Positions 1 through 11,125 of a stretch of DNA of 11,125 nucleotides are shown piece by piece. Position 1 is the stretch's first letter, and each line of letters starts with the position of its first letter. The notes beneath the pieces are model-generated. The model saw only the letters and a program-made list of their open reading frames with translations. It did no database searches and had not been told where the DNA came from. The stretch comes from Mycoplasmataceae bacterium (GTDB lineage Bacteria > Bacillota_I > Bacilli_A > Mycoplasmatales > Mycoplasmoidaceae): NCBI GenBank assembly GCA_031261045.1, contig JAISKE010000011.1, positions 1-11,125 on the forward strand. Reading direction: 5' to 3'. The position numbers and the translations under genes were made by a program.

Positions 1-1306
1 CATAAGCTAATGAAGCTAACATGCTCGATAACAACATTGCTCCACCAGATCCGCGACGCCCTATGATTAAGGTGTTAGGTTTTGTTTGAATGTCCACAAT
101 CAACGGAGTATTCTCTTCGCTTAAACCTACAATCGATTCACTTGGTCGAATATTTTTAATAGTATTAAATACTGAACGTAAAGAAATCTTGGAAGTTTCT
201 TTGTTTGGTATCTCGAATCTAATGGTGTTGCCCTTAAAGGAAATATTGAATTGAGCAATCTTTAGCTCTGATAGTAATTCGCACTGTTTTGCTAAGATTT
301 CATCGATCATCGCTTTGGTGCTAACTTCAAAATGGATTTCTGCAAACTGTGGCATAACGATTGTTTTTTCATAAGTCGATTCAATGCCTAATCTTTTCAT
401 GAACTTACTAATTGTATTTTGATATTTTTCAGCATTACTCTTATTATCAAAATAATGATCGGTGCTAGTGTCAGTTAAGAAGCTAATTGGAGGAAAATCT
501 TGCTTACTGCCAATGGCTTCCATTTTAATTTCATTACGCTGATGACTAGTAATTTTAACATCGTCTTTGCTTGGTGCCAATTCATCATAATCCGTTTTGT
601 TGTATGAACCACCTAATAGATGAATGAATCATTTTCGAAGCATAGTTACGCCTCTATTGTCAGTCTTGTTAAAGAATACTAATACACCACTGATTAATAG
701 ACATAGAGCAATTAATCCTAATATTACAAAACTAATATAAATTCAGCCAATGCTAATGACAATACCGATTAAACCAGCGCTAACATATGAAATATAGTTG
801 CTATCGAATGAGATTAAGAATGGATTGTAAACTTGGGTTTTAGCCGCATTCGCTCAGGATGTAAAACCATCAGTATATGACTTAAAAGTAAATTCAGTCT
901 TGTTGTTGTTGAAATAAGCCATGGAATAAATTGCAATAGAAATAGCGATTATTGCTGCAATTCAAATTAAAATTGTACCAACGACGAACCTACGTTTATA
1001 AATAAATTTAGTAAACTTGAAACCAAATAGTTTAAATAGCAAGAATAGGATTAACCATAAATATAAAATATATTTAGTGTTACCAAAGATGTATTCAAAT
1101 AAATATGAATCGGGGTAACTACCTGCATATGGAACACGTGCTGCAAATATTAAAGTGATAAATAAAAAAAATCCGTACAAAACTTTAAAAGCTAATTTAC
1201 GTGATCGTGTTAGTTGCTCTGGTTCAACATTAACATCATCAATCAATTTTTGTGATTCGTCTTGAACTCGAATTGTTTGACCTTCATTAAGTTTTATTGT
1301 TGGCAT
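1..1306 (-). CDS. FtsK/SpoIIIE-like membrane protein with degenerate P-loop (partial, C-terminus off the window)
   Basis: About 435 N-terminal residues are visible; the gene runs off the left edge. Four in-frame TGA codons are read as Trp (residues 115, 151, 188, 226). Hydrophobic membrane segments lie near residues 38-57, 78-96, 106-131 and 172-213 (probably two passes), then a soluble region. From about residue 370 it follows the FtsK/SpoIIIE pre-ATPase strand pattern: SVFNTIKNIRPSE, then VGLSEENTPLIVDI, then PNTLIIG leading into the nucleotide-binding loop. That loop reads GRRGSGGA (416-423), where FtsK has GxTGSGKS, so the catalytic Lys and Ser are Gly and Ala. The ATG (1306) overlaps the RNase J-like stop as TAATG and is preceded by GGTGGAG, so translation is probably coupled. 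Family: FtsK translocases pump DNA at the division septum. Inference: this one is unlikely to hydrolyse ATP normally. Walker B and the gamma domain are outside the window, so a more distant relative cannot be excluded. Confidence 0.7.
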
Positions 1307-3024
1307 TATTTATCTCCACCGGCAGTTTGAGGCTTTGCATGCTTCACGAAAATTATAGTAGATAAGACTAATGGTTTTTTATTAAATTTCTTTTCAAATT
1401 GTTTACTAACCATTTTACGAATCAACATTTTAATGTTCTTCATATCAATTTGAGCGTGTGATACACCATCTGCTAAAATGGTAGTAATTTCCTTATTACA
1501 AAATTCCACAATTGCATTAATGATTGTCTTATTTTCTTCACTAAGGTTGGTTACACCAACCGCATCGTAATTGTATTTCTTAATTAGTTTAGTTTCTTTA
1601 TCAAATAGTAAACTTAATAATACAACTCCATTTTCTTTCATTTGATCTCTTTCGAATAAACTGGAAGCTCCAACATCTAAAACTCCTTGCGTACCAATGA
1701 ATTGCGGTTCTAACTTAATGAATTTTTTCTTACTATCAATGATTCCATTGTTAAATGAAACACATTGCCCATTCTCTAACATGATTACATTTTGTTTCAT
1801 AAAACCAGTTTGAGCAACTGCTCTGGCATATTCCACAAAATCCATATATAAGCCCGATACCGGAATAATATATTTAGGTTTTATTAATTCCACTAAGAAC
1901 TTATGATCTTCATTGGATGCAGAAGCTTTAATAATATTCTTGGGTAGCTTATAAATATTATCAATATCCGTTCTTGCTACACTGTCAAATAATTCAGCCT
2001 CAAATGTTTCGTAACCTGGAATAGTCGTTTCAGCAAATACAAACGCATCATTCTCTTTTAAGTGAAACTTAGGATCGTCATCACCAATGATTTTAGATAA
2101 CTTAGTATATAAACGAGCCGGAGTACCAGTAACTACAATGACACCGTTAGTCGATGTATCTAGTTGACTATCATTCAATAATTGTAAATTTCTTGGTACG
2201 TAGTAGCCTTTAGCATTCAAGAACTTATACAATTCAATGAAAGTATTAGAATAAATGCTAAATGGTCTATTTTTGACACTACAAGCATGAGCAATAGACA
2301 ATATTTTATAAACATCATCATCATAAACTGCAATGACTACTCGGTTCTCATTGTCACTTAAAATCGTATCGAAATATGCTGCCACACGATGATTAGGGGC
2401 TGTAAATCCGTTATTTTTACCAGCTAAGCCCATTCCAGTGATTAACATCAAATTCTTGCCATGGGTGATCTTATTGATTTCAAAGATTTGGTCTTCAAAG
2501 GAGGCATTCTTGTTAGATGAGATGATAAAATCGTCAACGTAAATAACCGCTCCGTCTGATGTGTCAAATACAAATCCCACTGATTTAGGCATCGAATTTG
2601 ATATCCTAAACGGAGTTACCATACATGCACCTGTACGTTCGGTCTTTAAAGGTTCGATAATATGAATATTTAATTTAATCGGTGCTAACTCATGACGTCT
2701 TGCACGTTTATCAAAGTAAATATTTAGTATTGATGCCCCGATGTCAGTAGCATAGATGGGAATATTAGGAATAAACTGGTGAAAGAACTCTAGACTACCG
2801 AAATGTGCGTAGCTTGGGGTTCCTATAAAAATTCCTTTAATAAATCGTTTATTCTCATTAATTCATGAGTAATCGGGAATAATTCGTTTTACTCCTAATG
2901 AAACTGAAGATGGAACATCAATTCCCACATTGATGAGGTATAAATCCCCATTAACATTTAATACATAACACTCTTTCGCGTGTTCGTCTAGTCCACCTAA
3001 TGCAAAAAATTCTATTTTAGCCAT
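1306..3024 (-). CDS. RNase J homologue, full length, catalytic site lost (probable pseudoenzyme)
   Basis: A 572-aa protein, the usual RNase J length (about 550-570). One in-frame TGA (Trp54) splits the apparent frame. The N-terminus (FFALGGLDE at 6-14), GVKRIIPDYSW, the segment around FRISNSMP, the beta-CASP domain with LIKPKYIIPV, and the C-terminal domain (KPLVLSTIIFV) follow RNase J in order. The active-site motifs do not. HxHxDH is replaced by TPSYAH (69-74), keeping only the last His. The His of NHSIPD is Asn143. The DST motif is GMG. The HxSGHG histidines are replaced (Ser368 at the second), and the His of PVHGEY is Ser390. The TGDF aspartate survives (Asp165). RNase J normally makes 5'-exo and endonucleolytic cuts in mRNA and rRNA using two zinc ions. 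This protein should lack that chemistry and may be a structural partner of an active RNase J, as suggested for RNase J2 in Firmicutes. The start has GAGGAAG about 6 nt upstream. Confidence 0.88.
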
Positions 3025-3053
3025 TTTGTTCTTCCTCTTATTAATTAAATAAC

Positions 3054-3962
3054 ATGATATATATCAAGATATTACCGTTGTTTGTTGGATATATTATATA
3101 TCTTATAATTTTTTACGATAATAATTTTATGGATTTTATTGCTAATGAAGTGTATGTAACTATCCTCTCCATCATCGCTATTGCGGGGGGGGTGGTGATG
3201 AAACACTTTTGGCCACACATCAAGGATCGTTCCATTAAATTACCCCTAATTAAAAGACCGATAAATACATTTAAATTCTCATATTTGTGCATTGGTATTG
3301 CTCTAGCTTTATTTGAAATAGCTAAATTTGGTGTCTGAGGATCTATGGGGGCTACTGACCCAGCGGTATATATTGCGGTATTCATTTCTTCTTATTTTAT
3401 GTACTTTTTTATTGTTTATGGTTTTACAAAGAAAACATCCTTTTGTAACTCAACTGTTTCAGTTGGCATTTATATATCTACCATTGTATTATGAGTTTTT
3501 ATGTATGCCATCCCTGGTACAATGCACAACTCTGTTGCCATCATCTTATGGCGTCATGATGAACTAGATTTCTTTGTTTGGCATACATTTATTTACCATA
3601 CAGTTGGTGTTGTTGCTGGAATTATTTTTTTAATTATCAACCCATATAAAATAAATGCCTGACGAGATTGTTTAAAAGGTTTAATACCATTAGGAATATT
3701 GACAACAATTGCATATTTCTGCGCAACATTTATTCCAATGGGTATTGATGCATTCACAGACTATGATTGAAACGTTATTACTAAAGGTGTTTACGACGGA
3801 GTGGGACAAGTGATAGCTTTATACAATCTAGTAGTTTACGTTATACAAATAGCTTTGTTTGTCATGTGCTATTATTCATATTACATTGCCTCGGTATTAA
3901 TTCCAAGATTAATAAAATATTTGTCCTCTAACTGCAAGAAAAGCCGTACATTAAGTAAATAA
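3054..3962 (+). CDS. multispanning membrane protein of unknown function
   Basis: A 302-aa protein once four TGA codons are read as Trp; two TGG codons are also used. It is very hydrophobic, with about eight membrane segments (near 2-20, 34-50, 74-93, 105-123, 132-153, 178-196, 205-222, 255-285). A polar His/Asp-rich stretch (WRHDELDFF, then WHTFIYHT, about 162-180) sits between segments five and six, and the C-terminus is basic. I do not recognise the family with confidence; the HxxxYH pattern and helix layout faintly recall YwaF/TMEM164-type proteins. No Shine-Dalgarno is visible before the ATG at 3054. An in-frame TAG at 3018-3020 limits the start to a narrow stretch, and no other ATG lies in it. 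A run of eight G (3185-3192, codons 45-47) falls inside the frame, odd in such AT-rich DNA. It is the only plus-strand gene here, divergent from the RNase J-like gene and convergent with phoU. Confidence 0.85.
3185..3192 (+). repeat. poly-G tract (G8) inside a membrane-protein gene
   Basis: Eight consecutive G residues lie within codons 45-47 of the membrane-protein gene, encoding Gly-Gly-Val next to a predicted helix. Homopolymeric G tracts are common sites of slipped-strand length change in bacteria, including mycoplasmas. Gain or loss of one base here would truncate the protein. Confidence 0.9.
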
Positions 3963-3974
3963 ATATATTTACTT
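3953..3974. terminator. palindrome spanning both stop codons of convergent genes; possible bidirectional terminator
   Basis: A perfect inverted repeat: AAGTAAATA (3953-3961), a 4-nt loop AATA, then TATTTACTT (3966-3974). It contains the TAA of the membrane-protein gene (3960-3962) and, on the other strand, the TAA of phoU (3969-3971), which are only 6 nt apart. The position between two convergent genes suits a shared terminator. The stem is AT-rich and weak, and a strict U-tract is lacking, though the plus side is T-rich afterwards. Confidence 0.4.
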
Positions 3975-4655
3975 CTTATTTCATTGTTTGCTTTGTTTAG
4001 TAAAGAAGAAGTCTGATTGTTTAATAAATACAAAATTCTCAGAAATATTATCTACATGGTCTACTAATCGTTCAGTGTGCTTAATAATGATGATAGCCCC
4101 TTGAAACAGTCGTTCAATTTGCTCAGCTGATCGACGTTTAAGAATACCAGATAGTCGTTCTAACATTTCATCATATTCTTTTCTAAACGCAATGCGGGCT
4201 GCTTGAGAAATTTTGTAAGTGTCTAGTGCAGTTTTAGTAGTTAGTGCTTTGAATACTTTCGAAATGGCACTAATTGCTGCTTTAGCAGAGTCAATGATTA
4301 ATTCACGAATATCATCTGACACTTTGTTGTTCATCATAAATCTTGTGGCACTAACGGCATAGTCTGCCATACGCTCTAAATCTTTGATCGAGTTTAAAAT
4401 TGCAATTACATATCTTAAGTGATTAGCTAGTGGTTCATTCTTAGAGATCGATCAAATGCAATCATCTTGAATTTGTGCCTCGTAATGATTAGACACTTCT
4501 TCTAATTTATGAATTTGTTCCATTTCTTTTTGCGTAACTTTATTGGACTTCATTCACTTTAATACTATTTGCCACGTATCTAATACATGATCACAGAACT
4601 TAATAAATTCCGCATGTAACTCGTTTTCCGATTGTTTCATTATTTCGTAGTTCAT
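3969..4655 (-). CDS. phoU: PhoU, phosphate transport accessory/regulatory protein
   Basis: A 228-aa helical protein, close to the usual PhoU length (about 215-235). TGA occurs as Trp internally and again near the end, so the true C-terminus is WNKK followed by TAA at 3969-3971; a standard-code reading stops early. The two repeated metal-binding signatures of the PhoU three-helix bundles are visible: KDLERMADYAVS (around 91-102, E/D-xxx-D type) and HTERLVDHVDNISE in the second half. PhoU binds the PstB/PstC side of the phosphate importer and restrains uptake; in many bacteria it also signals through PhoR/PhoB. No sensor kinase or regulator lies in this window, so its role here is probably control of the transporter itself (inference). 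The start has a strong AAGGGAG about 7 nt upstream, and its ATG overlaps the stop of the preceding gene (TAATG). It is the last gene of the pst operon. Confidence 0.93.
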
Positions 4656-4999
4656 TATAAACTCCCTTCATGAGTAGTTCTTCAATACTCTTGTTCTGTT
4701 AGATGAGCGTGTTTAGCTAATCGCATATTTTTAAATTTGATAACTAACGTCACCATCGCAATCGCCTCGCACAATATATTAGAAATCATGGTTGGCAATC
4801 CACCACCTAAGTTATGGTCAATAACCATACCTAATCCATAAATAGAGAACATTAAACAAGCAAAGGCAAAGATGATATACATTCACAAATGAACTCATAC
4901 GGTATTTTTAGTTTTTAAAACTGTAATTAAATTAGGCAAAGAGAAAATTGCAATGAAAACGGCACCCACCGTCATAAAGACTGTTGTAGCAATAGACAT
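4655..4999 (-). CDS. SemiSWEET/PQ-loop small membrane protein 1
   Basis: A 114-aa protein with three membrane segments (about 5-28, 38-59, 70-89), the half-transporter layout of SemiSWEETs. Helix 1 ends with LPNLITVLKTKNT (21-33), matching the PQ-loop signature although the Gln is Asn. Helix 2 carries IYGLGM where SWEETs often have YG. Helix 3 starts with LPTMISN; Asn74 fits the conserved substrate-pocket Asn. SemiSWEETs work as dimers and move small sugars down a gradient; the substrate here is unknown. The TGA after LTEQEY is a Trp codon: the frame runs on through WRTTHEGSL to a TAA overlapping the phoU start (TAATG). Shine-Dalgarno GGAGG lies inside the end of the preceding gene. It is a paralogue of its upstream neighbour (shared LITxxKTKNT and LTExEY motifs). 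Fold confident; family and transport function moderate. Confidence 0.75.
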
Positions 5000-5000
5000 A

Positions 5001-5420
5001 TTAAATAACCTCCGTTTTGTTTTGTTCAACTTCTTGTTTAGATAATGATTTTTCATCTTGACGATAGTTCTCTGCCAACATTTTAAACTTTTTGCAATAC
5101 TCCACTTCGGTTAATTTCGCTTTTTTTGCCGCTGCATGATTTTTTAATTTTCAAACAAAGATGATTGAAGAAATAATCCCACAAATCCCTTGGGCTATGA
5201 TTAATGGTAACCCACTTTCTAATCTGTGAGCTAAGGCATGATTACCCGCCATTAGACAACCACCAATAAAAAAGCATGTACAACCAACCAAATAAATCGC
5301 ATACATCGGAATATTGATATAAGCTGTGTTCTTGGTTTTAATTAGAGTGATTAATTGAGGTAAAGTGAAAATAGAAATCCCTGCTGAAGCTATTAATCCT
5401 ACGTAAAAGTATCATGTCAT
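5001..5420 (-). CDS. SemiSWEET/PQ-loop small membrane protein 2
   Basis: A 139-aa protein with three membrane segments (about 3-26, 38-58, 72-93) and a charged, Lys/Glu-rich C-terminal tail of about 45 residues. It has the canonical PQ motif: FTLPQLITLIKTKNT (18-32), which fits SemiSWEET/MtN3 helix 1. Helix 3 starts LPLIIAQ, with Gln at the place of the conserved pocket Asn. It is clearly related to the next gene (LTEVEY matches LTEQEY after helix 3), so the two arose by tandem duplication. The pair is complementary: one keeps Gln of PQ but loses the helix-3 Asn, the other the reverse. This fits a heterodimer, but that is inference. It starts 2 nt after the pstB stop; AGGAAAG upstream is a plausible but distant Shine-Dalgarno. 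Two TGA codons are Trp. What it has to do with phosphate uptake is unknown. Confidence 0.78.
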
Positions 5421-5422
5421 AA

Positions 5423-6400
5423 TTAACCAATCTTTCCTGAAATATATTCTCTAGTCTTCTTATTTTTAGGGGCAGTAAAAATATTTTTAGTAGAATCCAT
5501 CTCAATAATATGCCCTTGAAAGAAGAAAGCCGTTTCATCACTAATTCTTTGAGCTTGTGCCATAGAATGCGTCACAATGATAATCGTAAAACGATCCCTT
5601 AGTTTATTAATTAGAATCTCAATTTTACTTGTGGCAATTGGATCTAGCCCACTTGTCGGTTCGTCCATCAATAAGGTTTCCGGGCTTAACGCAATGGCAC
5701 GAGCAATGCATAAACGTTGTTGCTGCCCACCTGATAGAGAAGTACCTAATTCGTATAGGTTTCCTCTAACTTCTTCTCATAATGCTGCACCTTTTAAAGC
5801 GTCTTCCACTATTTTGTCTAAAGCAGCCTTATCATTAATACCGTGTGACCTTGGCCCATAAGCCACGTTCTCATAAATAGACATTGGAAACGGAGATGGT
5901 TTCTGAAAAATCATTCCAACTCTAGTAGTCAATTCTAAAGTGTTTAATTTCTTAGATGCTAAATTAATCCCCTTGTCAAAATAGATAGTGCCTTCACTAG
6001 AAGTGCCTTCAATTTGATCGTTCATTCTATTTAAGCATCTAATAAAAGTAGACTTACCACAACCTGATGGCCCAATTAAAGCCGTAACTTTATGACGTTT
6101 AATTTTAATATTAATATCTTTTAGTGCATGTTTGTTGCGATTGTCATATCAAAAATTAAAATTTTCTACTTCAAAAATATTATCTTTATTAAAACTCTTT
6201 TTAATGCCATCAACACTTCTTTGGTTTTGTTCTTTCAGTTTTTTATAAAGCCTTTTTTGTTGTTGACTTAAACCTAAATATTTAAAAGGGCGAGAAAGTC
6301 AACTAGCACTCAAGACTATCGAAACTTTCTTATGATCAGCTTGTGCTTCATCAATCGATTCTACTTTTAATGTCTTAACTTTATTATCTACATTTGCCAT
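5423..6400 (-). CDS. pstB: PstB, phosphate ABC transporter ATPase with N-terminal extension
   Basis: A 325-aa protein; PstB is usually about 250-270. The ABC domain begins near residue 75 ([10 protein letters not shown]) and contains Walker [10 protein letters not shown] (110-118), the Q-loop Gln166 in [20 protein letters not shown], the signature LSGGQQQR (222-229), Walker B LLMDEP (243-248), the D-loop SGLDP and the switch His278. The [17 protein letters not shown] segment is typical of PstB. All catalytic residues are present, so it should power phosphate import on the cytoplasmic face of the permease. The first ~73 residues are an extra, mostly basic segment ([18 protein letters not shown]) without a recognised domain. 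The start at 6400 is well supported by AAAGGAGG 8-9 nt upstream and by the permease stop 1 nt before it. TGA is Trp at several places. Expression is as part of the pst operon. Confidence 0.96.
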
Positions 6401-6401
6401 A

Positions 6402-8498
6402 TTAACTATCCTCCTTTCTCCTTACTTTTCGTTTTTTATCAGGCGGATCAGTTTCTTTCACACCTAAAATATGCTTTTGGTCATCTGATAATTGATCATT
6501 AGGTATTAATACCTTTCGCATCGCGACTTGCGCTGTTGCGATTTGTTGTTCATGTCGTTTAACCCGGAGATATTGTTCCTTTGCTTTATTCTTTTTGTGA
6601 TTATAGTAAGCTGGAATAATGACGTGGACAACTAAAATAATTAATAACACCAAGATCATGGTGACGAAAGCACACTCATACATTATATGACTACCTTGAT
6701 TAACATCAGCGGTATATATTTGCGCATAAATTCTTGTTGTTAATGTTTGCCCTGGATTTATTAGCGAAATAGAACTAGAAGACGATAACCCAGAAGTTAA
6801 ATATAATGGGGCTGTTTCCGCTAAGATACGTCCAATGGATAAAATCACCGCTGTGGTAATGCCTTGACGAGCCGCTGGTAATACAATCTTACGAATGGTT
6901 TCTCATTTACCAGCACCAAGGGCATAGGAATTAGTTCTTAAATCTTTTGGGACCGATTGCAATGCTTGTTGAATGGTTCTAATAAACACTGGTAGGATTA
7001 CTATTAAAATAGTAAAAGCACCAGCAATTAATGATTTGCCAGCCGTACCACCAGCCGACATTCCTAAAGTTTGAATAAAGAAAATCAAACCAAACATACC
7101 AAATAAAATGGAAGGTGTAGAACCTAATGAATCAACGAAGAATAATAATGATTTTTTTAGTTTACCTTCCTTAGCAAATTCATTAATATATAAAGCAATC
7201 ATTAGAGATAACGGCAACCCAATACCAATAGCGATGACAATGATCAAAAGCGTATTCACAAATGCTTGACCAGTAGAATCCTTGCTAAAGGAGAACACCG
7301 TTGCATCACCACTCGCTAAAGCTACCCCACCGAATCCTAAAATATCGATGACGATTCCTGCCAAGAAAACCATCGTGATCGTCACACAGATTCATTCTCA
7401 GAATATTTTTCAAGAAGTATATAGATGAACGAATTTGTTCTTTTGAATTCTAGTAGTTAGATAACCTGAAAGGTTATCAGTGTATTTAATTTTAGAATGA
7501 TAAGTGATCTTCTCGTATAGTTTTTTAATTTGGGCTGGAATAAATAAAACGACTGTCGCCGCACCGTGTTCAAATTTATTCCATCATAATCATTTACTTT
7601 TCTTACGTTTTTTTGTTGCGGTCATTGCAATTGCATTAAGAATCATGACAAAAACAAACATTACTAAACCAAAAGCAAATAACAATGATTGTAGTGCCGG
7701 CCCACCACCTTCAGCAAACATATTAGCTGAAATCAAAGCACCTAAAGATCTTAAACCACTAGTCGCCGTTGCTCAGAACCCGTGATCAAAGATGGGGTTG
7801 TATCCTTGTGATTGTAAAATCATGGATACAGCCATGGTTTCCCCAATCGCTCTAGCAAAAGCAATAATTACCCCAACCACAATACCATTACGTGCTTCTC
7901 GTTTACATACTTTATAAATGGAACGAGTTTTAGTATTACCTAACACCATAGAAGCAGAGATTAATGTATTGTCTACCCCATCTAATGCATTTAACGATAG
8001 AGATACAATGGTTGGTAACACCATGAAGGTCAACATAAAACCAGTAGTTAATAAGTTATAGGCTGTCGCAGTGTGAAACACTGCTTTAATAATGCTACCT
8101 AATATTTGTGAAGCGAATAATCCGAAGATAACTGATGGAATATCTGCTAACAGTTCTACACCAACCCGCATCGGTTTTTGATGTTTAGGTTTGACACGAT
8201 ATTTAATAAACATCGCCGTTTTGACACCGACTGGTCAGGAAATGGCGATCGCTAACACCGAGATCATCAACGTGATGCACAGCGGTAATCAAACTGATCC
8301 TTTATTGCTAGCTAAATCAAATTTAGTACCAAAGATACTTCCACCGTATGCTTTGAAACCCGGAATAGATTTAATCACAATAAAAATAATTAGTAAGAAA
8401 AATATTAATGCGAAGATTCATGAAAGCAATGATGAAAAGAACTTGGATGCTTTATCCGCACCTTGTTTTTTAACCATCAAGTTACTCTTCTTAGCCAT
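6402..8498 (-). CDS. pstA: fused PstC-PstA phosphate ABC permease
   Basis: A single 698-aa frame carrying two ABC permease halves. The PstC-like half is about 1-300, with an EAA-type loop ASMVLGNTKTRSIYKV... at ~182-205 followed by RAIGETMAV. The PstA-like half is about 360-630, with EAA-type loop NSYALGAGKWETIRKIVLP at ~523-541 followed by GRILAETAPL. The halves are joined by a basic cytoplasmic linker (~290-360). The C-terminus is a ~65-residue highly charged tail after the last membrane helix, ending KKRKVRRKEDS. Each EAA loop docks on one PstB subunit, so the fusion supplies the whole membrane pore that PstC and PstA make as separate proteins elsewhere. The gene starts 2 nt after pstS, with AAAGGGA as Shine-Dalgarno, and ends 1 nt before the pstB ATG. 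Many TGA codons are Trp. I recall a similar fusion in M. genitalium. The symbol could equally be pstC. Confidence 0.93.
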
Positions 8499-8500
8499 GG

Positions 8501-9739
8501 TTATATCCCTTTAGGTAGTGGCGCAAAGTGCCATCCGTCCTCTCAAGGTGCATCTCAATGAGGTGTTAGAGTTGAATCATTGGAAAGATAATAATCTGAA
8601 GATCAATTGTTAAAATCTGGAACGTTAAGAGCATTCGGGAACATTTCTCAGTTTTCTTCAGGTGTAAGTGCTTTGCAACCAATCGATTCTAGCTGTTTCT
8701 TATAATCATCATCGGTAATCAATGATTTAATAAAGGCAACCTCCGGTGAATCTTGTTGGGCGACTGACAACATCGCATTTAGCGGTCGAAATCAATTGTA
8801 ACCATTGCTGGAATCCACTTTTGTGATGTCGTAAGGAACTGGTGTCGACGGGTTTAAAATACTACCATCGTATGCAAAAACCCCATAACCGTTCTTTTTG
8901 ATAAGCGATATATTTTGATTAATAAAGCCGGATGATAAATATACTACTTGCCCAGGCTTATTGGATTTTTGAAACATATCTCAGGCTCGACTATTTGCTT
9001 CATCAGTTTGTTGAATACCAAATGAAGTCCCGTACTGGCCTGATGCGAAAGCATTCTTTTGTGGCTCATTTAAACCTGCTTCGTTTTGAAAGTTAGATAA
9101 ATTGGTCCCATTCACAAAAGAGGACGCGGTGCCTGATGTTAATGAGCCACCAGCTCGTACATAAGGAATTAATGGCGTATTATTAAGCTTTGTTAGTATT
9201 ATTGAAGGACTTTGATTAATCGCAAAAGAACCTAATCTGACTGGTTTAGTAATACCATCATCGATTCCTGTAAATATTCGCATGAAATCTTGGATATTAT
9301 CATTGTTCACCACTAACAAATTATTTAAATCATCACTTGATAAGCCTAAATCCTTGGGCGGTATATAAACCATACATATAGCTTCTCATCCTATGGTGAC
9401 AGTTTTTATCTTATTGTTGATTCATTCATCTCTAAACCCTTTATCGCCAGCGGGTTGGACAGCAGTATATGGATCTTTAGATGCATCGCCGATGTTAGCG
9501 TAGTTTTTTGCTATTTGTTCAATACCGAAACCACTACCACCTGCTTCTACGGTGATATCTAATTTTTTATGATTCTTTTGATACTTTCCTGCTAAGGTTT
9601 CCACAAAAGGTTTTACACCTGAAGAACCAACACAAGAGATGGGGGTCTTGTTGAACCAGCTGTTAGAAAAGCCAACCACCAAGCCTATAGGAATTAGGCA
9701 GAGACCCATGGTTATGGTGTTCTTAATTCATTTTTTCAT
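8501..9739 (-). CDS. pstS: PstS-like phosphate-binding protein
   Basis: A 412-aa protein, longer than typical PstS (about 290-350). It begins MKKW with a hydrophobic segment (about 11-26) that can act as a signal or membrane anchor. No convincing lipobox Cys follows it, unusual for a mycoplasma solute-binding protein. Phosphate-binding motifs are visible: VGSSGVKPF (37-45), EAGGSGFGI (65-73), GDASKDPY (about 84-91, Lys where Arg is usual) and YVRAGGSLTSGTASSF (193-208, the R-x-x-GSGT loop with an insertion). The C-terminal ~50 residues are Trp-rich, with several TGA codons. It should capture phosphate outside the membrane and pass it to the fused permease. First gene of the operon. The ATG at 9739 lacks a Shine-Dalgarno (GCCACCACCA precedes it) and lies about 18 nt from the predicted transcript start, so the mRNA leader is very short. 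The next in-frame ATG (9709) would cut into the anchor. Confidence 0.92.
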
Positions 9740-9763
9740 TGGTGGTGGCTGTTAACCACGCAA

Positions 9764-9769
9764 ATTATA
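9764..9769 (-). promoter_or_regulatory. -10 box (TATAAT) of the pst operon promoter
   Basis: On the minus strand a consensus TATAAT lies 25-30 nt before the pstS ATG, predicting a start of transcription near 9757. No good -35 hexamer is visible; the position is occupied by the AT-rich inverted repeat. Weak -35 elements are normal in mycoplasma promoters. Confidence 0.55.
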
Positions 9770-9795
9770 CTAAATATATTAATAAATATATTTAG
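9770..9795. promoter_or_regulatory. 11-bp perfect inverted repeat abutting the pst -10 box; possible operator
   Basis: CTAAATATATT (9770-9780), spacer AATA, AATATATTTAG (9785-9795): a perfect 11-bp inverted repeat whose edge touches the TATAAT of the pstS promoter and covers the -35 position. A bound repressor or activator here could control the phosphate operon. It could instead be a weak terminator for the 95-aa gene upstream, but no U-tract follows on that strand. Such palindromes also arise by chance in AT-rich DNA. Confidence 0.4.
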
Positions 9796-9878
9796 ATATA
9801 CATATAGATTTTTTAGTAGTTTTTAATGCCAATTATTACGTTTAAATATTGTATCGTGATAGCAAAGACTATACTAGA

Positions 9879-9929
9879 CATCATGATGTTCTACTCTAAC
9901 TTGATATGGTTGCATAGGTTTATTATAGT
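9879..9929 (-). pseudogene. 51-bp stub of a second copy of the 95-aa gene
   Basis: This segment matches 10099-10149 inside the neighbouring gene at 48 of 51 positions, exactly 220 bp away. The three clear differences are all transitions. It would encode YNKPMQPYQVRVEHHDV and then hits TAG. The last codon and stop of the intact gene (CTA TAA) fall inside the stub's left edge, so the intact gene's present C-terminus seems to be set by the junction. It looks like the remains of a tandem copy. Confidence 0.6.
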
Positions 9930-10210
9930 GGACGGTTATTAGGCAATGGTTTCAATCCGTTGTAATCTAGACGGTCATTGATTTCTTTAATTTCAATTCT
10001 AATTGATTTAAACCCAGCCCTCATTTCGATTGCTAGCTCATCAACGGTCATTCGATGTTTACCAATTTTCTCAGCACAAACAATCAAATGATCTTTACCA
10101 TCACGATGTTCTACTCTGACTTGATATGGTTGCATAGGTCTATTATAGTCAATCACTATTTCTTGATCGTTTATTTTTGGTTTACTTTGTAATTTATCAT
10201 TCTTTTTCAT
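9923..10210 (-). CDS. small protein of unknown function with predicted C-terminal coiled coil
   Basis: A 95-aa protein I do not recognise. The N-terminal 20 residues are Lys/Asp-rich and probably unstructured. Residues 21-54 look like a small beta-rich segment (DYNRPMQPYQVRVEHRDG, then HLIVCAEKIGKHRM). Residues 55-82 form an amphipathic, coiled-coil-like helix (TVDELAIEMRAGFKSIRIEI, then KEINDRLD). The end is Pro/Asn-rich. There are no membrane segments and no signal peptide. The start is supported by AAGGGAG about 7 nt before the ATG. It follows dnaX by 85 bp on the same strand. The short coiled-coil tail is reminiscent of lineage-specific repeated mycoplasma families (DUF16/UPF0134 type), but I cannot show homology. 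A partial duplicate of its 5' half sits at its 3' end. Confidence 0.8.
   Translation of the reverse strand: MKKNDKLQSKPKINDQEIVIDYNRPMQPYQVRVEHRDGKDHLIVCAEKIGKHRMTVDELAIEMRAGFKSIRIEIKEINDRLDYNGLKPLPNNRPL
10099..10149 (-). repeat. source copy of the 51-bp direct repeat, inside the 95-aa gene
   Basis: Covers codons about 21-37 of the 95-aa gene. Its partner is the stub at 9879-9929, in the same orientation at an offset of 220 bp. Confidence 0.85.
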
Positions 10211-10295
10211 AGTTTACTCCCTTCACCTTATAAATAGCAACAAAAGTTCTAAAAAACTTCTTTATTTTAATTTCTATGCAATAAAGTACTTATTT

Positions 10296-11125
10296 TTATC
10301 CAAAAATATTTCGTAAATCTTGGTTTAAAGACTTTTGAGTGTCAGCTTTAATAGCTAATGGTTCTAAATTAGGTTCAGTAAAAGTTTTACCTTGTTTTTT
10401 CAACACTAAAAACTTTTGAGTTAACTTATCTAATGCTTCTTTATCATAACCTAAGATGTAAATATATTGACCGAGTAACTTCTTAATAGTATTCAAAAAC
10501 GCCGGAGTAACACTATGCATAAATATTTCAGCATCAGCTTCATCTTCAAATAAAACTACAATGCCATTAGTGGATGCACATTTAATTTTGGTGGCAATTT
10601 TTAAAGTTTGCAGAGTTTTATCGTGAGATGTTCTAATTTCGTCAAATAATTCTTTAGCACGTTCTAAAGTTTTTTTAGTGGTGTTATAAGCAATTTGAAA
10701 AAATATATCTTCGTCATTTTGTTGTGGTAATACTTCTTTGATATCTACGTGTTTAGCTTCCACTCTAACTTGCGGTTGTTTAGTAATAATTTCTTTAGTA
10801 ACAAACGCATCTTCTAAAGAAGGTTGCTTAGAAATCTTGTTTTCAACAACTTTAACCTTCTCTGCAACGATAGGCGTGGAAGCAGTAAAAAGTTTGAACG
10901 AATTAAATACTGCTGCTTCAAAATAAGAACGCGCATCGTTTGCGGCACGAATTTTCATGTGCGTTTCTTGTCAAATAGTAATTAAACTAATACAAGTGGC
11001 AACATTCATATTTAATTGATCAACGTTATTTTTGTTTAATCGTTTTAATAAGCCCTCATCTTTAGTTTGTAAATAAACTAATTTATCAATTAATAAAATC
11101 ACAATATCGTTTGCTAGATTAGTAA
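10296..11125 (-). CDS. dnaX: DNA polymerase III gamma/tau subunit, C-terminal part (5' end off the window)
   Basis: About 276 C-terminal residues are visible; the ATPase domain lies beyond the right edge. The frame is continuous through one TGA (Trp, in ITIWQETH), so the ATG at 10958 is internal and not the start. The first visible part fits DnaX domain III, the oligomerisation domain: LANDIVILLIDKLVYLQTK, and RAANDARSYFEAAVFNSFKL, where other bacteria have RxxLExAxLKL. After a linker rich in Lys, Glu and Val comes a segment resembling the tau C-terminal domain (NGIVVLFEDEADAEIFMHSV, then LLGQYIYILGYDKEALDKL), which in other bacteria contacts the polymerase alpha subunit. The protein loads the beta clamp and couples polymerases at the fork. 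After the TAA only weak hairpins are seen in the 85 bp before the next gene, so co-transcription with the 95-aa gene is possible. Confidence 0.87.

Follow-up and report, generated by a model that had tools for sequence, protein, structure and literature searches.

RNase J2 (RnjB) of the Bacilli, including Staphylococcus, occurs alongside a canonical RNase J1 (RnjA). In Staphylococcus aureus a J2 active-site mutant is without phenotype whereas a J2 deletion has one, and the authors of that study propose that J1 provides the active site of the J1-J2 complex and that J2 is mainly structural, a minor activity of J2 not being excluded (PMC3937233). A 2014 survey listed RNase P and RNases J1 and J2 as the only analysed RNases present in all Mollicutes and treated both J proteins as nucleases (PMC4014445), and a paper of 2016 called the presence of RnjB alongside RnjA in JCVI-syn3.0 unexpected (PMC4993169). 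The available text of a further paper mentions RNase J1 (MPN280) alone, and in passing (PMC12494982). Here we describe an RNase J homologue from a Mycoplasmataceae bacterium (GenBank assembly GCA_031261045.1, contig JAISKE010000011.1) in which most of the catalytic residues have been replaced. The stretch analysed, called the window below, comprises positions 1 to 11,125 of that contig. In the open-licence literature searched we found no statement on catalytic-residue loss in mycoplasma RNase J2, which is no proof of novelty.

The gene is an open reading frame on the complement strand (1306-3024) that is read in genetic code 4 as a protein of 572 amino acids, with one TGA-encoded Trp at codon 54 and a TAA stop. 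Eight catalytic or metal-binding residues were scored in all proteins, in the numbering of S. epidermidis RNase J1: H74, H76, D78, H79, H142, D164, the His of the SGH motif, and H390. Alignment with canonical RNase J shows that the window protein retains two of the eight, H79 as H74 and D164 as D165. On the complement strand, the HxHxDH metal motif (HGHEDH in canonical proteins) has become T69-P-S71-Y-A73-H74 (2803..2820), the metal-binding His of the NHS motif (H142 in RNase J1) is N143 (2596..2598), the DST motif is G197-M-G199 (2428..2436), the SGH His of the beta-CASP/5'-end motif is S368 (1921..1923), and the metal-binding His of HGEY (H390 in RNase J1) is S390 (1855..1857). The old metal-bridging Asp is the second residue of the pair D164-D165 (2530..2535, same strand), the first standing where J1 has a Gly. 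The original prediction for this gene, made from the letters alone and giving no strand, had listed these replacements and had named Asp165 and the last His of the first motif as the only survivors; the alignment agrees on both counts. The two survivors are not features of the family, H74 being His in 2/51 and D165 being Asp in 32/51 of the catalytically degenerate copies introduced below. The prediction would have been undone by intact HxHxDH or beta-CASP His motifs elsewhere in the protein; a search of the whole window protein for HxH, HxHxDH, SGHG and HGE gave zero occurrences, and a displaced catalytic motif is thereby ruled out.

The rest of the protein has the architecture of RNase J. 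The family model TIGR00649 matches it end to end (positions 1-546, 1.9e-118) with 396.2 bits, just under the curated cut-off of 400, and Pfam places above cut-off an RNase J beta-CASP domain (PF22505, residues 227-340, complement 2005..2346) and an RNase J C-terminal domain (PF17770, residues 456-558, complement 1351..1659). In the same scan Lactamase_B did not match the window protein and RMMBL was found below cut-off only. The best sequence match among solved structures is S. epidermidis RNase J2 (143.8 bits), followed by the B. subtilis-type J1 3zq4 (138.6 bits). The predicted model of the window protein has a pLDDT (predicted local distance difference test score) of 89.1, and its top Foldseek match is the RNJ2-RNJ1 integrative model 9a5v. 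Computation shows that the protein keeps the fold but has lost the two-metal site and the 5'-end loop; the full length and the fold-defining segments, which the prediction had described as preserved, are present.

Homologues of this kind occur throughout the mycoplasma order. The window protein found a match in 320/320 genomes of its order, the weakest case being that of G065 (best match E 1.7e-16) and the closest copy in the searched genomes being 69% identical; TIGR00649 was matched in 95/95 genomes of the nearest named relative's family. Two or more matches were counted from the match table in 309/320 genomes of the order, some of them being fragments, and a contig scan using the window protein alone as query gave 3 loci only. 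From 50 genomes of the order, picked by hand for two full-length matches, we fetched both copies. One, the active-type copy, has 8/8 catalytic residues in 50/50 genomes; the other, here called the dead copy, has lost most of them, and among 51 dead copies (these 50 and the window protein) 16 keep none of the eight, 22 keep one, ten keep two and three keep three. A further 32 dead copies keep 0-2, and so do 43 database proteins longer than 480 amino acids (among P0003-P0053), at least three of which (P0009, P0011 and P0029) are truncated at the N-terminus and had their gaps scored as lost. M. pneumoniae P0064 and M. mycoides subsp. capri P0063, to which MMSYN1_0257 would correspond, keep 1/8 each, as does the dead copy of G080 (L073). 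Because 43 database homologues keep 0-2 residues and the 50 orthologues keep 0-3, loss of the site is not a matter of chance. The mycoplasma RNase J1 shares fold, length and genomes with the dead copy and differs from it in its complete catalytic site and its separate place in the tree. The second, canonical RNase J that the prediction had proposed to look for was sought in relatives, where it is intact in all the paired genomes and in each of the eight that were checked among the ten genomes closest to the window. Two other loci were seen in these searches: in G310, a 2-Mb genome of the order, two places match the dead copy about equally (~266 bits each), and at G009:C1:473435-475083 the match to canonical RNase J falls into two parts with a TAG inside, either an error or a real break.

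For comparison with the Bacilli, ten J2-type and ten J1-type proteins were labelled from their motifs before any tree was built. The J1-type proteins keep 8/8 residues and the J2-type proteins 5-7 of 8, with H74 and H76 present in 10/10; the Acholeplasma laidlawii proteins found by the dead-copy profile keep 7/8. The site is thus partly eroded in the sampled J2 proteins and lost in the mycoplasma order, and it is in this degree (5-7 residues against 0-3) that the Bacilli and mycoplasma proteins differ. In a quick tree of 73 rows, 29 dead rows lie on one side of a branch with support 99, starred, in the Shimodaira-Hasegawa-like approximate likelihood ratio test (SH-aLRT), and 22 active mycoplasma rows lie on one side of another (SH-aLRT 100, starred), placed among the Bacilli J1. 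The approximately unbiased (AU) test rejects a tree in which dead and active mycoplasma copies are held together (p-AU 4.55e-9), and a duplication of J1 confined to the mycoplasmas is ruled out by the tree and this test. Six sites (237, 317, 343, 347, 373 and 424) side with Bacilli J2 and not with either of the J1 sets; sites 67 and 90 go the other way, being J1-like against J2. Outside the dead clade, and beside P0056 (5/8), stands P0055 ('Bacilli bacterium') with 0/8 residues; P0106 keeps one and P0115 two of the eight, and the three are perhaps independent losses.

The gene order tells a similar story. An FtsK/SpoIIIE gene begins at the RNase J stop codon, which it overlaps as TAATG, and runs off the window on the same complement strand (2..1306). 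With flanks of about 1.5 kb and the window FtsK as query, ftsK adjoins 26/30 dead-copy loci; with the L001 FtsK as query the same 26 loci were matched, one being the query's own locus. The latter query found ftsK at 0/29 J1 loci with about equal flanks, the 30th locus of the control set, L013, being itself a dead copy without ftsK. With wider flanks, ftsK lies downstream on the same strand at 5/10 Bacilli J2 loci and at 5/10 further mollicute dead-copy loci, one of the latter being a weak match. Tree, J2-specific residues and the ftsK neighbour together point to the window gene as the mycoplasma orthologue of RNase J2. The prediction had not recognised that the gene is probably one member of an order-wide set of RNase J2 orthologues and no isolated degenerate protein.

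The ratio of nonsynonymous to synonymous substitution rates (dN/dS) was estimated by the method of Nei and Gojobori (NG86) in 19 hand-picked genome pairs, of which G076-G084 gave no dS for the dead copy; all are pairs of relatives, because against the window protein, whose nearest copy is at the 69% given above, dS would be saturated. Over all pairs dN/dS was 0.020-0.247 for the dead copy (18 values) and 0.018-0.213 for the active copy (19 values), and the nine pairs whose dS is below 1 for dead and active copy alike gave 0.020-0.186 and 0.018-0.094, respectively. In these relatives purifying selection acts on the dead copy nearly as tightly as on the active copy, and such low ratios mean that the frame is kept for the protein it encodes. 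The prediction had asked for dN/dS across related species and had held that the intact frame was selected for a non-nuclease role, and the combination of ligand loss in all scored orthologues with these low ratios favors that claim. A decaying pseudogene or an assembly artefact might be suspected from a window that is a single 11-kb contig, but full-length frames in many genomes and the low dN/dS of relatives leave this with almost no probability at all, and pseudogene decay or chance degeneration is ruled out on the same two grounds.

What the protein does is best approached through Bacilli RNase J2, with which it shares its lineage (judged from the tree, the J2-specific residues and the neighbouring gene) and the presence of a canonical J1 alongside. 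We consider it probable, though well short of assured, that the dead copy is a non-catalytic subunit of an RNase J1-J2 complex, that is, a mycoplasma RNase J2 turned pseudonuclease. The main reason for this reading is that S. aureus needs the J2 protein but not the J2 active site, a condition that the mycoplasma protein seems to carry to its natural conclusion. Also in its favor, the C-terminal domain of the near family has changed least when measured against J1 (identity ratio 0.85) and the beta-CASP domain most (0.61). The dead J2 would bind RNase J1 by way of its C-terminal domain and the scaffold that it has kept and might support the assembly, the stability or the substrate path of the J1 active site, the working unit then being a heteromer of nuclease and pseudonuclease. 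Scaffolding of an active RNase J, which the prediction had offered as an example, would fit both the J2 orthology and the S. aureus genetics. A likeness of logic, not of family, is offered by INTS9 and CPSF100, catalytically impaired metallo-beta-lactamase/beta-CASP proteins that are paired with a live paralogue (INTS11 and CPSF73). These belong to another branch of the superfamily and have different C-terminal domains. The structural matches of our model include entries of INTS/CPSF-type complexes, the matching chain being unspecified, and the mycoplasma genomes likewise have a dead copy and a live paralogue at the level of gene content. INTS9 has been termed a pseudoenzyme and contacts INTS11 through C-terminal regions (PMC7980224). 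The wider proposal, that in the whole order, whose members have genomes among the smallest of any bacteria, 5'-end RNA decay relies on a live and a dead RNase J in obligate partnership, a bacterial counterpart of CPSF73/CPSF100 in which the conserved task of the dead partner is purely non-catalytic, seems to us evenly balanced between true and false.

Several observations weigh against the J2 assignment or the proposed pairing. In the 73-row quick tree the J2 side does not come out as a clean clade: a group with support 93 (not starred) takes in eight of the Bacilli J2 rows, L219 and L222 stand outside it, and L158, L148 and L222 have very long branches. The fold comparison cannot separate J2 from J1, and the domain ratios given above carry no significance test. 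ftsK was not found at 5/10 of the further mollicute dead-copy loci, G080 included, despite wide flanks. The pair of J1 and dead copy is also not found in every genome of the order: judged by score, four of the 11 single-match genomes (G005, G162, G167 and G243) have a J1-type copy alone and at least five (G002, G029, G033, G071 and G092) a dead-type copy alone, all nine being genomes of unstated completeness, and score does not settle the type in G108 and G113. Finally, the S. epidermidis RNase J2, although changed at four key positions, binds one Mn, acts as an endonuclease and is predominantly a monomer (PMC7864078).

This last protein raises the question of whether the dead copy still cuts RNA, by means of a weak site or of the residues left to it. 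J2 proteins whose sites are lost in part retain some activity (PMC7864078), and the acidic bridging position is present here as D165. The mycoplasma protein differs, however, from S. epidermidis J2, in which a single metal is still bound (PMC7864078): four of the five residues that hold this metal are lost in the window protein, leaving the acidic D165. The four His equivalents are here T69, S71, A73 and N143, and among the 51 dead copies His occurs once in each of the columns H74, H76 and H142 (two of these in L152 and one in L148), so that we hold a remaining nuclease to be extremely unlikely. The old pocket could instead have been rebuilt into a site for a new ligand, as in a sensor or an enzyme of other chemistry. 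In its favor, D164 is Asp in 46/46 and N74 is present in 43/46 dead copies of the near family, and K390 and D165 are fixed in 27/27 copies of what we label the Spiroplasma/mycoides-like set, many rows in both counts being close relatives. The fixed residues nevertheless differ by lineage, most other former ligand positions vary among dead copies, and a Lys opposite the old Asp could be a mere salt bridge replacing the metal. We infer that the lineage-specific residues are structural fillers of a metal-free site, and a new ligand site appears improbable.

Less easily set aside, although still unlikely, is a stand-alone RNA-binding protein that holds RNA along the RNase J channel uncut and independently of J1. 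The fold with its channel-forming domains is kept, and the mean net charge, calculated from frames read stop to stop and so including some upstream residues, is +6.4 for 50 dead copies, close to the +6.2 of mycoplasma J1 and far from the -6.5 of ten Bacilli J2. The HxSGHG loop, with which RNase J holds the 5' end of its RNA, is however lost and variable, the beta-CASP domain is the most diverged of all, and the net charge of the window protein itself is merely +1. A role as partner of FtsK/SpoIIIE in chromosome handling is suggested by the co-directional TAATG overlap, by ftsK at 26/30 loci and by a study of M. gallisepticum nucleoids that found the two RNase J homologues there among the low-abundance proteins (PMC8637272). 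The same neighbour at half of the Bacilli J2 loci means that this may be ancestral gene order, and the failure to find it in the wide flanks of half of the further mollicute loci also speaks against a partnership, which we regard as very unlikely.

The remainder of the window holds other features. Divergent from the RNase J2 gene, 3054-3962 on the forward strand encodes a 302-amino-acid membrane-like protein with no NCBIfam or Pfam match. A scan of 2950-4000 for promoters and terminators was uninformative: it gave 7 promoter-like sites where 6.3 were expected and 1 terminator-like site where 0.4 were. On the complement strand follow two overlapping SemiSWEET-like reading frames between pstB and phoU (4655-5420), both well under the family cut-off; a fusion of the phosphate permeases PstC and PstA of 698 amino acids (6402-8498), with TIGR02138 and TIGR00974 both above cut-off; and a PstS-like protein (8501-9739) whose best match is confined to N-terminal residues 1-88 of 412.

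If mycoplasmas have a pseudonuclease as one of their two RNases J, it is J1 alone that carries out RNase J cleavage in these bacteria, models with two enzymes need correcting, and the database name 'ribonuclease J' misleads. The family model TIGR00649, 'MG423' (RNase J family beta-CASP ribonuclease), whose name points to an M. genitalium gene, also matches canonical RNase J, and so its description labels dead and live members as ribonucleases without distinction. The obligate pair of live and dead RNase J, if true, would account for the retention of a second RNase J even where a synthetic genome has been reduced to a minimum. The dead copies also offer a natural test of RNase J2 function, evolution having discarded the catalytic site while selection preserved the remainder of the protein.
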